DNA from: Candidatus Lindowbacteria bacterium RIFCSPLOWO2_12_FULL_62_27
Lineage (GTDB): Bacteria > Lindowbacteria > 2-12-FULL-62-27
NCBI GenBank assembly: GCA_001784175.1
Contig: MFPR01000043.1
Span: 1 to 64,000 of the forward strand
Reading direction: 5' to 3'
Length of the DNA: 64,000 nucleotides
Shown piece by piece: positions 52,691 to 55,847 of the stretch; within the stretch, counting starts at the first letter, position 1; each line of letters opens with the position of its first letter. The position numbers and the translations under genes are program-made. The notes beneath the pieces are model-generated. The model was not told the origin of the DNA, did no database searches, and worked only from the letters and a program-made list of their open reading frames with translations.

Positions 52691-54347
52691 GTTGGCGATA
52701 CCGTCGGCTCGGGTGAGTTTTGCGATTGCGCATCCGTCGAGCACGGCGGGATATTTCCGGGACGTATCGGGCCTCACGGCCGATTCGGCATGGACCGACA
52801 CGGATGGGTACGCGCAGGACACGTTTACGCTCGGGTCGGCCCGCGGCGTGTATCTGGTGACGGCGACCAGCGACTCGAACCCGATCCAAAAGACGATGTT
52901 CTATGCCTATGCGGACGGGTTCGATCTTGCGGCAAAGACGTGGAAACTCGTCGCGCCGAACAAGGAAGCGTCAGCGGTATCGTTGATGGCCCCGGTTTTG
53001 CATCCCATCAGCACGCTTCTGTCCCGATCGACCGTCTACGAGTGGAACGAGAACGCGGGAGTCAATGCCGGGCTGTATGATTATTCCAAAGCGACGGGCA
53101 TCGCGCGTGGGCGGGGATACTGGATCTACGACGACACCGGCGTTGGTGTCGTCTTTTCGGGAAGCTCCGGATTCGACACCGTCACCGTTTCGCTTACGGC
53201 CGGCTGGCACATCATTGGCACCGGAGAATATTTTTACATCGACTGGGATTCCGATGTCCGGTTCGATACCGGCAGTACGAAACTGACGCCCGCGCAGGCG
53301 GCCGCGGCCGGGGTCATTAACAATTCCGTCTACTGGTACCATGGCAGCGGCTACTACCGCGGGCCGGATCCGCTGACGCCGGCGCTCTCGCGCGTTCAGC
53401 TCAAACCGTCCGTCGGATTTTTCATGTATACCGCGCTGGCCTGCAACATGAGCCTATATCCGAATCCTCGGTCGCCGGCGGAGACGGCGACGCAGATTCT
53501 GAATCAGGCGCCGGCGCTGGTGACGAGAAACGCGAAAGATGGAACCCCCCACCCAGCCTCCCCCACAAGGGGGGAGGAGTTGTACGGCGCGGGCGCCTCG
53601 AAGTACACGCAATCGCAACCGGCCGAAACCAACTGGGACGTACGGTTCATCCTGTCCGGCGGCGGGCTAATGGAGTTTCAGAATTACATCGGAGTGAAAC
53701 CGTCGGCGACGGACGTGCTGATGTATGACCGCCGCGCGCCACCGCTGGCGGCCGGGCGATACCTTGCGATGAGTTTTGCCGGCGAAGATGGCGTGCGAAA
53801 GGCCGCGAGTTACGTGGAGCCGATCCGGACGGCGGCCAAATGGGATTTTCAAATTCAGAGCGACCTGACCGGCCAGGCGGTGACGCTGGCGTGGGACAAT
53901 CTGCAGAGCATTCCGGAGAAATTTGCCGCGTACCTCATCACACCCGCCGGGCCGCCGGTCGACATGCGCAAGAGCGCGTCGTTCAGTTTCGCCACGAACG
54001 CGGACGGCCCGACGGCCGCGTCATTCAGCGCGATCGCGGGACAGCCGGACTATGTCGCGGCGTTTCTGGCGCCGCCGCTGGACCGGGGGTTCACATTCGC
54101 GTATCCGAACCCGGGACCCGACGGCAACAGCTTCGTCTATTTCAAACACAACGTTACGGCCGGCGACGTTCGAATCAAAATTTTCGACGTTGGCGGCCGG
54201 CTCGTGCGGGAACTGACCGGAAGCGTCTCGCCGATCCCGTGGGACACGACCAACCGATTCGGCCAGAAACTCGGGTCGGGCGTGTACCTCTACATCGTCG
54301 AGGGCAGCGGCGCGAGGCTCGTGGACAGGGTGGCGATCGTACGATGA
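52674..54347 (+). CDS. Secreted protein with Ig-like and FlgD-type C-terminal domain (C-terminal part of a split gene)
   Basis: About 557 residues. It opens with a Big_1-like Ig domain (GLAIPSARVSFAIAHP, TDTDGYAQDTFTLGSARGVY), then a domain with ARGRGYWIYDD and SAGWHIIG-like motifs often seen in such proteins. It ends in a FlgD-Ig/type IX-sorting-like tail (VRIKIFDVGGRLVRELTG, LGSGVYLYIVEG). The ATG at 52674 is unlikely to be a real start; the protein probably continued from the 52334 frame. Its TGA overlaps the ATG at 54344 (ATGA). Confidence 0.75.
   Translation: MPDSTGLAIPSARVSFAIAHPSSTAGYFRDVSGLTADSAWTDTDGYAQDTFTLGSARGVYLVTATSDSNPIQKTMFYAYADGFDLAAKTWKLVAPNKEASAVSLMAPVLHPISTLLSRSTVYEWNENAGVNAGLYDYSKATGIARGRGYWIYDDTGVGVVFSGSSGFDTVTVSLTAGWHIIGTGEYFYIDWDSDVRFDTGSTKLTPAQAAAAGVINNSVYWYHGSGYYRGPDPLTPALSRVQLKPSVGFFMYTALACNMSLYPNPRSPAETATQILNQAPALVTRNAKDGTPHPASPTRGEELYGAGASKYTQSQPAETNWDVRFILSGGGLMEFQNYIGVKPSATDVLMYDRRAPPLAAGRYLAMSFAGEDGVRKAASYVEPIRTAAKWDFQIQSDLTGQAVTLAWDNLQSIPEKFAAYLITPAGPPVDMRKSASFSFATNADGPTAASFSAIAGQPDYVAAFLAPPLDRGFTFAYPNPGPDGNSFVYFKHNVTAGDVRIKIFDVGGRLVRELTGSVSPIPWDTTNRFGQKLGSGVYLYIVEGSGARLVDRVAIVR
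53557..53577. repeat. Intergenic-type hairpin inserted in a coding frame
   Basis: CCTCCCCC and GGGGGAGG arms around a short loop. The translated segment TPHPASPTRGEELYG is a typical product of such intergenic repeats, so an element seems to have entered this gene in frame. Confidence 0.6.
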
Positions 54348-54356
54348 TGAGAGAAT

Positions 54357-54388
54357 ACAGGAGACAGGAGACAGGAGACAGGAGACAG
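54357..54388 (+). repeat. Heptanucleotide tandem repeat ACAGGAG (4.6 copies)
   Basis: Four full ACAGGAG units plus ACAG lie between the ATG at 54344 and the signal-peptide codons of the porin gene. Seven bases is not a multiple of three, so each unit gained or lost shifts the frame. Confidence 0.9.
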
Positions 54389-54402
54389 AATACTACTGTT
54401 AC

Positions 54403-54430
54403 TGGCTTGTGGCTTCTGGCTTCTGGCTCC
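54403..54430 (+). repeat. Second heptamer array TGGCTTC (4 imperfect copies)
   Basis: TGGCTTG, TGGCTTC, TGGCTTC and TGGCTCC run in tandem inside the region that encodes the hydrophobic core of the porin signal peptide. Confidence 0.8.
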
Positions 54431-54449
54431 TTCTCCAGCGTATGGCCAG

Positions 54450-55847
54450 ATGTCCGCCGAGGAATTGCGGCGGGAGCGGGTCGAGACGACGGAAGAGTTG
54501 CGCAGGACTCAGGATGCGTTCGGGTCGTCGAGCTGGGCCAGCCGCGCGGTGGGCGGCGGCGGGGGATGGCGGCTGGATTATGGCGGGTGGATTTCACCCG
54601 CGTTTACGTCGTCGGCCGACAACGACCGCGACCGGGCGGCGCAGGACGCGCTCGACCATACGTGGGACATGGATTTGCGGCTCTACACGAAACTCTTGAG
54701 CCGGTCCGGCAAGTCGCAATTGTACGCGCGATTCAAGACCACGCATGCGTCCAACAGCCGCGCGTCGGAGGCGGTCCGCAAGAGCGATTGGATCCAACCC
54801 GCGGTCGACATGCTCTATTATTCAGCGTCGATTCAGGCCGGGAGCGTCAAGAACACCTTGACGGCGGGCCGCCAGTTCATTCTCGTCGAGCGCGGCGTCT
54901 CGTTCGGCCTCACGGTCGACGGTCTCGGCTACGAGATGCAGTCGCGCCGCAACCGCCTCCAGATTTTCTTCGCCCGGCAGCTTCCCGGGGACGACAACGT
55001 CGATTATCTCGCCAAATCGCCCGGGCGGTCGAAACGGTTTTTTTACGGCGGTGAATGGATCTGGAAATACATCCGGGGCCAGCAGGTCGGCCTCATGACC
55101 GTCTTCAACAGCGATCAGAACGACGGATCGGCCGACGCCGCCGGACAGAAACATCAGATCGACTCGCAGTATTACGGGATCGGGTTCGAAGGAAATATTT
55201 TCGCGCGGCTGTCCTACTGGGTGCATCACGTCCGGGAAACCGGCAAGACCCACTCCGACTTCGCCACGACGCTGTCTGCGGACAAAATCGGCATCGACGC
55301 GGCCGCGACGAATCTGGGCCTCCGGTATTTCTTCCCTACGAGGATTTCGCCCAGTGTCTACTTCGAATACGCCTCGGGCAGCGGGGACGCCGACGCGAAG
55401 GGCAACACCAGTTCGACCACGGGCGGAAGCGGATCGCTTGCCGGAAGCGGCGCCGGCGGCAAGGACCGGCGGTTCATATCGTTTGGCGGCCTGTCGCTCG
55501 GCTACGCTCTTGCGCCGCAGTTGGCGAACCTGTCGGCCTATAAACTCGGCATGAGTCTCAAGCCGTTCGGGTATGTGTCGAGCGCGTTCTGGAACAACAT
55601 GACGATTCAGCCTGCATACTACGAGTTTCGCCGGAAGAGTTCGACCGGCGCGACGTCGGATCCGTACACCGTGCGCGCGGCCGGCCAGTCGAACGACATC
55701 GGCTCCGAACTGGATTTCACATGGTCCTGGGTCCTCTGGGGCGACCTGCAGTACCAGTTCAAATACGGCAAGTTCATGCCGGGACACGCCTACGACAGCC
55801 GCGGCACTGAAACTTACCTGCGGCTCAAGATCTCGGTGGATTTATGA
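54450..55847 (+). CDS. Outer-membrane beta-barrel porin, alginate-export-like; likely phase-variable start
   Basis: 465 residues from the internal ATG at 54450. The chain is rich in alternating beta strands (FTWSWVLWGDLQYQFKYG, AATNLGLRYFFPT) and resembles the alginate-export porin family; strands run to the last residue (LRLKISVDL). In the same frame upstream, a signal peptide is readable (ILLLLACGFWLLAPSPAYGQ) but no ATG, GTG or TTG lies in frame before the stop at 54348. The ATG at 54344, coupled to the upstream stop, would be in frame if one heptamer were lost. As written the porin may be off. Confidence 0.8.
   Translation: MSAEELRRERVETTEELRRTQDAFGSSSWASRAVGGGGGWRLDYGGWISPAFTSSADNDRDRAAQDALDHTWDMDLRLYTKLLSRSGKSQLYARFKTTHASNSRASEAVRKSDWIQPAVDMLYYSASIQAGSVKNTLTAGRQFILVERGVSFGLTVDGLGYEMQSRRNRLQIFFARQLPGDDNVDYLAKSPGRSKRFFYGGEWIWKYIRGQQVGLMTVFNSDQNDGSADAAGQKHQIDSQYYGIGFEGNIFARLSYWVHHVRETGKTHSDFATTLSADKIGIDAAATNLGLRYFFPTRISPSVYFEYASGSGDADAKGNTSSTTGGSGSLAGSGAGGKDRRFISFGGLSLGYALAPQLANLSAYKLGMSLKPFGYVSSAFWNNMTIQPAYYEFRRKSSTGATSDPYTVRAAGQSNDIGSELDFTWSWVLWGDLQYQFKYGKFMPGHAYDSRGTETYLRLKISVDL

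Follow-up and report, generated by a model that had tools for sequence, protein, structure and literature searches.

Frame switches built from heptamer repeats are known in bacteria, and the initial annotation of the locus described here was right to point to them. In the neuO gene of E. coli K1, which belongs to prophage CUS-3, a coding (AAGACTC)n repeat acts as the switch, and full translation is obtained only at multiples of three units (PMC8653822). Most known heptamer contingency loci hold about 13-39 units (PMC8653822, PMC2651432), and the AACAACC heptamer of Haemophilus varies from 1 to 7 units between strains (PMC2651432). In the opa genes of Neisseria, CTCTT repeats lie within the leader peptide itself, and the resulting frame decides whether the protein is expressed (PMC3960869). 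Short repeats are also known as dispersed elements: Rickettsia palindromic elements (RPEs) are palindromes scattered over genes and intergenic DNA alike, frequently in frame (PMC10969869), and in Nostoc and Xanthomonas heptamer arrays occur genome-wide, often with about four units (PMC4692102).

Here we describe a heptamer hairpin at the 5' end of a porin gene in a stretch of 64,000 nucleotides, hereafter the window, from contig 43 of the draft genome (G000; 4.39 Mb in 44 contigs) of an uncultured Lindowbacteria bacterium. We think it probable, with some reserve, that the hairpin belongs to a class of dispersed short-tandem-repeat hairpins that have been recruited as signal peptides, and that the copy in the window has expanded out of frame. 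For comparison we used two genomes of other genera in the same family, G001 (JAHFCY) and G002 (JACQOF, from groundwater), which were the only two relatives returned when the genome collection was scanned for further members of the family. The array survey covered 851 kb of sampled sequence, together with pattern searches, and the features of the locus are collected in Table 1.

Table 1. Features at and around the 5' end of the window porin gene.
Feature	Positions	Strand	Basis or remark
Upstream gene, large secreted-type protein	52674..54347	+	ORF; stop overlaps ATG54344
Tandem ATG ATG	54344..54349	+	Starts at 54344/54347; overlaps upstream stop (ATGA coupling)
Imperfect heptamer hairpin, start region and signal-peptide codons	54348..54437	+	RNA fold
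Purine (left) arm core, 4.57 perfect ACAGGAG	54357..54388	+	AGGAG Shine-Dalgarno-like core in each unit
In-frame non-standard start candidates, only ATA54390, CTG54396 and CTG54402	54390..54404	+	Codon list
Signal-peptide segment, porin frame, ILLLLACGFWLLAPSPAYGQ	54390..54449	+	Translation; paralogue N-termini
Pyrimidine (right) arm, about four CTGGCTT units	54402..54431	+	Codes hydrophobic core LACGFWLLAP
AlgE-like outer-membrane beta-barrel (PF13372), intact 465-codon ORF	54450..55847	+	Pfam E 1.7e-16
167-aa exported-looking protein	55844-56347	+	ORF; overlaps porin end
FecR-domain protein	56344-57372	+	FecR E 9.8e-7; overlaps 167-aa gene

The downstream reading frame had been called a porin, and both profile and fold support that identity. 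Its AlphaFold model, built on a 16-sequence alignment, is a beta-barrel (pLDDT 75, pTM 0.76) whose best PDB matches are all AlgE structures, at a TM of about 0.67, which together with the profile places the predicted barrel in the AlgE family (PF13372), with alginate export as a putative function. Codon usage is normal, the frame is fully open and the barrel residues are conserved. Including the window copy, the genome holds 10 porin paralogues, and these are commonly preceded by a large secreted-type gene with the same stop/start coupling as in the window. The gene upstream of the window porin is homologous to those genes, and its product gives a weak C-terminal sorting-domain match to PF18962 (E 2e-5, below the gathering cut-off). 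It lies in the porin's frame (frame 0) but ends in two TGA codons that stand between the two genes, and it was rejected as an explanation of the frame. Its own coding frame changes near 52690 with no intervening stop, start or gap, as an N-terminal part (ORF 52334, frame 2) runs into the main ORF (frame 0) within 52334-52800; relatives' versions of the protein are much longer. This change is possibly a frameshift, a deletion junction or an assembly error.

According to the initial annotation, the ATG coupled to the upstream stop misses the porin frame, and coordinates and frames bear this out: ATG54344 overlaps TGA54345, a second ATG follows at 54347, and both are in frame 2, with the porin in frame 0. 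From 54351 onwards the porin frame has no stop, and upstream of the signal peptide it lacks ATG, GTG and TTG alike; the first such codon is ATG54450, past the signal peptide. The earlier statement that no usable start precedes the signal peptide holds for these three codons and fails for the non-standard ones of Table 1. Tandem Repeats Finder (TRF) reports the ACAGGAG array at 100% matches and a score of 64, and a CTGGCTT array at 54402-54428 with 3.9 copies at 90%. Removal of one ACAGGAG unit gives MMREYRRQETGDRILLLLACGFWLLAPSPAYGQMS..., in which the coupled ATG is joined in frame to the signal peptide and the barrel, as had been proposed, and addition of two units restores the frame likewise. 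Read in frame, the purine arm would encode a charged n-region, RRQETGDR. Cleavage is likely before Q (54447), given that the N-termini of the paralogues end in A-x-A followed by Q; a lipobox reading (LLAC) was dismissed, since these type I sites are retained in the paralogues. The repeat thus lies in the 5' coding region, its unit length is not divisible by three, and the number of units (one fewer or two more) sets the frame of an otherwise intact surface protein, as in contingency loci of the neuO and opa type; its 4.57 units are fewer than the roughly 13-39 that are typical of high-rate heptamer slippage.

The second heptamer array had been placed correctly in the signal-peptide codons, and what changes is its standing as a separate array: the purine and pyrimidine heptamers of 54348-54437 pair in register as the two arms of one hairpin. 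The RNA fold of this segment has an energy of -39.1 kcal/mol (z -2.92), and 1 of 200 shuffles was as good. The same layout, purine then pyrimidine, is found in intergenic hairpins of the window genome (e.g. C4:215047-215217). Elsewhere in the window, two near-alike intergenic GATTTGT/AAATCAC heptamer hairpins lie at 43448-43529 and 52192-52273 (fold z -10.2 and -5.6), and the motif CGATCCGGGGAACCGGGTCATGATG occurs in 6 copies, with 0 expected by chance (43571, 44763, 45680, 46528, 52073 and 52315); several of these adjoin heptamer arrays or hairpins, and CGATCCGGGGAACCGGGTCATGATG is part of a composite intergenic repeat. A palindromic octamer element, TGATATCA/TATCATGA, is present at 28146-28197, with more copies in the same genome at C1:18823, C1:176283 and C1:193429.

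The most direct evidence on the origin of the array comes from a paralogue, L008, which is 54% identical to the window porin. It has the matching stop-overlapping ATG, in frame, as well as AATACAG and the signal-peptide segment CTGGCTGCCGGCTTCTGGCTC, and it has zero of the four GAGACAG units; it reads ATGAGTGTCAAATACAG directly followed by AATCGGGATTTTCATTCTGGCTGCCGGCTTCTGGCTC in frame, and the window has the same layout with (GAGACAG)x4 added, that is, 28 nt or +1 modulo 3. Since L008 uses this ATG in frame without the four units, the start proposed for the window porin is likely the ancestral one: we infer that ATG54344/54347 was the porin's start and is now out of frame by +1. Given the zero-unit paralogue, the ACAGGAG array looks like a local expansion. 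A recent one would fit, as the units are perfect and no other perfect ACAGGAG array was found in the 4.39-Mb genome. In the porin tree, L008 groups with L011 and L005 and not as the sister of the window copy, so zero units may not be the direct ancestral state, and the likeness is one of layout and no proof of descent.

Arrays at this position are not peculiar to the window. Among 20 porin paralogues from the three genomes, 8 carry a strong tandem array in the 150 nt before the mature protein, with units of 7, 8 or 10 nt, unrelated sequences and scores of 19.5-39.5 that were reached by 0 of 100 shuffles in each case; in gene-body control windows, 1 of 158 reached even 10.5. The 5' end of the porin genes is a repeat hotspot. 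The repeat unit follows the genome and not the gene, since sister porins differ: L006 of G002 has an octamer and its sister L014 of G000 a decamer, and L009 of G002 has an octamer and its sister L010 of G001 a decamer. Period 7 stands out among the periods that are not multiples of three in 451 kb of sequence, where 12 period-7 arrays score at least 12, against 0 in Markov-3 sequence; the window array is the strongest of the 12 (score 25). It is not the longest of the genome, as an array at C1:51728 is slightly stronger in the 851-kb sample (score 26).

The relatives show what such hairpins can encode. An octamer family, GGGAGAAA/TTTCTCCC, has 192 overlapping matches in G002; a search for the TTTCTCCC octamer family in G000 and G001 gave no match. 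Among the first 100 of the 192 matches listed there are 43 distinct sites, 12 of which code for signal peptides of exported-type proteins, all 12 in frame, an enrichment with a p value of 9e-7 on an assumed signal-peptide fraction of 5%. The proteins concerned include three AlgE-like porins, HlyD, FecR, a FadL-like barrel, an S55 peptidase, a TPR protein and others, and a typical octamer-coded signal peptide is MERQGRKGEREKGRKLNRELQGKGCPLSLSPFLPFSLILALAFLPPNPVYAAE (L132, FecR). Heptamer-coded signal peptides were also found in L030, L031, L032 (M23 peptidase), L037 and L041. Over the three genomes, 22 signal-peptide arrays were compared, and every one except that of the window porin has a start in its frame (21 of 22); here signal peptides were recognised by visual inspection and genes with a simple codon model, and a few of the starts are GTG or TTG. 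In two distant genomes outside the family (G066 and G099; L156-L163), CTGGCTT/CTGACTT heptamer arrays are mostly intergenic or just upstream of genes, and the idea that CTGGCTT arrays always become signal peptides was discarded on account of these copies in other phyla.

Copies are not confined to signal peptides. The heptamer hairpins of G000 and the octamer hairpins of G002 are dispersed palindromes that lie between and inside genes, as RPEs do, and some are inserted in frame in genes unrelated to one another. The initial annotation had overlooked that the arrays are members of such a dispersed family. In G002, octamer repeats run in frame through HemB (L134:2497-2531, REKGRKGEREK) and through the isopropylmalate dehydrogenase LeuB (L106:1480-1564). 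In G000, a perfect 4.7-copy GATTTTG array, in frame (SKSKIQNPKSKI), lies in an rRNA-methyltransferase-like gene (L176:11728-11760, C1:51728-51760), and PepA holds a similar array (C28:211681-211712).

In the explanation that we favour, the window feature would be one copy of a dispersed hairpin element placed exactly at the 5' end of the porin gene. The anatomy, the frame state, the zero-unit paralogue, the recurrence of different arrays and the in-frame signal-peptide arrays of the relatives can all be read in the DNA, whereas mobility or expansion of the hairpins, a working signal peptide and an off state able to revert are inferred. Whichever strand is read, the purine arm precedes the pyrimidine arm. 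The former would offer AGGAG words resembling Shine-Dalgarno sequences and the Arg/Lys/Glu codons of the n-region, the latter the Leu/Phe/Trp/Ala/Ser codons of the hydrophobic core, so that both arms together would give most of a signal peptide. The purine arm of the window copy would have gained four perfect 7-nt units relative to the paralogue, which would put the translation-coupled ATG out of frame, and the sequenced copy is therefore predicted to be off, with no signal-peptide-bearing precursor made. The porin would be turned on if slipped-strand events in either arm removed one unit or added two. As a broader idea, which we put forward tentatively, the hairpins might be portable signal-peptide cassettes: with the purine arm leading on both strands, a hairpin inserted at a gene start would bring Shine-Dalgarno words, a charged n-region and a hydrophobic core whichever way round it lay, and export signals would arise time and again from repeat DNA, later to be switched or broken by unit slippage.

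Four other readings bear on the present state of the gene, and the standing given to each overlaps with that of the explanation above, whose subject is what the element is. It is possible, if short of probable, that the porin is phase-variable, with heptamer slippage reversibly switching the frame within a population as in neuO and opa. The perfect units whose length is not a multiple of three, the coupled ATG, the surface barrel and the intact ORF behind the array are all as such a switch would have them, and there is precedent for a coding heptamer (neuO), for repeats within a signal peptide (opa, PMC3960869) and for variation at low unit counts (the Haemophilus AACAACC repeat, PMC2651432); by analogy with these, the locus has the anatomy of a contingency locus, both halves of which, coding heptamer and leader repeat, have precedent. 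Against this, established heptamer switches have 13-39 units, far more than the 4.6 of this array; all but one of the 22 comparable arrays are in frame; and perfect arrays of like length stand in frame in housekeeping genes (the rRNA methyltransferase at C1:51728), so that length by itself is no sign of switching. With one array alone out of frame, reversible switching is not a general property of these hairpins; for the window porin, known from a single genome of the species and with an array that is short beside known heptamer switches, it is no more than possible.

We regard with similar caution the reading in which the expansion simply broke the gene for good, leaving one of 10 paralogues to decay. 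Nine further paralogues are present in the genome, the upstream gene also changes frame near 52690, and the window array is the only one found out of frame; however, the porin ORF and the genes downstream are uninterrupted, codon usage in the porin is normal and its barrel residues are conserved, so any break would have to be recent. That the metagenome assembly miscounted the units, or merged a mixed population into one consensus, is unlikely: the genome is a 44-contig draft, the region is repetitive and a further apparent frame break lies 1.7 kb upstream, but an ordinary short read would span the 32-nt array, and elsewhere in this genome arrays were assembled in frame. Less likely still, the porin is on as written, from one of the non-standard starts that follow AGGAG words, of which the one at 54380-54384 is followed after 5 nt by ATA54390 and after 11 nt by CTG54396. 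Against this, initiation at such codons is uncommon and weak, the signal peptide would then have no charged n-region, the hairpin fold takes in these codons, and the paralogues start in frame at ATG, GTG or TTG. Ribosomal frameshifting into the porin frame was rejected, as it would need a +1 shift and no slippery context is evident.

The pattern of recruitment is the more interesting result. Repeat hairpins that, on either strand, encode first a charged and then a hydrophobic arm suggest a concrete source of new signal peptides, and export signals may repeatedly arise and be lost in this way in related genomes. If true, this would connect palindromic repeats inside genes with leader repeats that cause phase variation, and would account for the unrelated signal peptides of sister porins from different genomes. 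A limited full-text search found no literature on signal peptides made from palindromic elements or heptamers, and the novelty is to that extent provisional. Start-site annotation at repeat-hairpin loci can be expected to go wrong often; the window porin would probably be annotated from ATG54450, without its signal.

Set beside the known systems, the locus resembles neuO in having a 7-nt coding repeat at the 5' end of the gene. It differs in that neuO has 14-39 units in phase-on strains, encodes an acetyltransferase and not an exported barrel, and has a repeat that encodes no signal peptide; moreover, variation has been demonstrated for neuO, whereas the window array is known from the sequence of one genome. 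With opa it shares a pyrimidine repeat within the signal-peptide codons of an outer-membrane barrel, but the opa repeat is a pentamer, its switching has been measured, and no complementary purine arm is described for it (PMC3960869). The heptamers of Nostoc and Xanthomonas are G-rich quadruplex formers that are under-represented in coding DNA, whereas the window array has inverted arms, coding use and no G-triplets, ACAGGAG holding GG only where quadruplexes take tracts of at least 3. The copies in LeuB, HemB, the rRNA methyltransferase and PepA resemble RPEs and in-frame MITEs; RPEs, however, are about 150 bp long and form families of conserved peptides, whereas the hairpins described here consist of tandem 7- or 8-mers, change their unit from genome to genome and are frequent in signal peptides.
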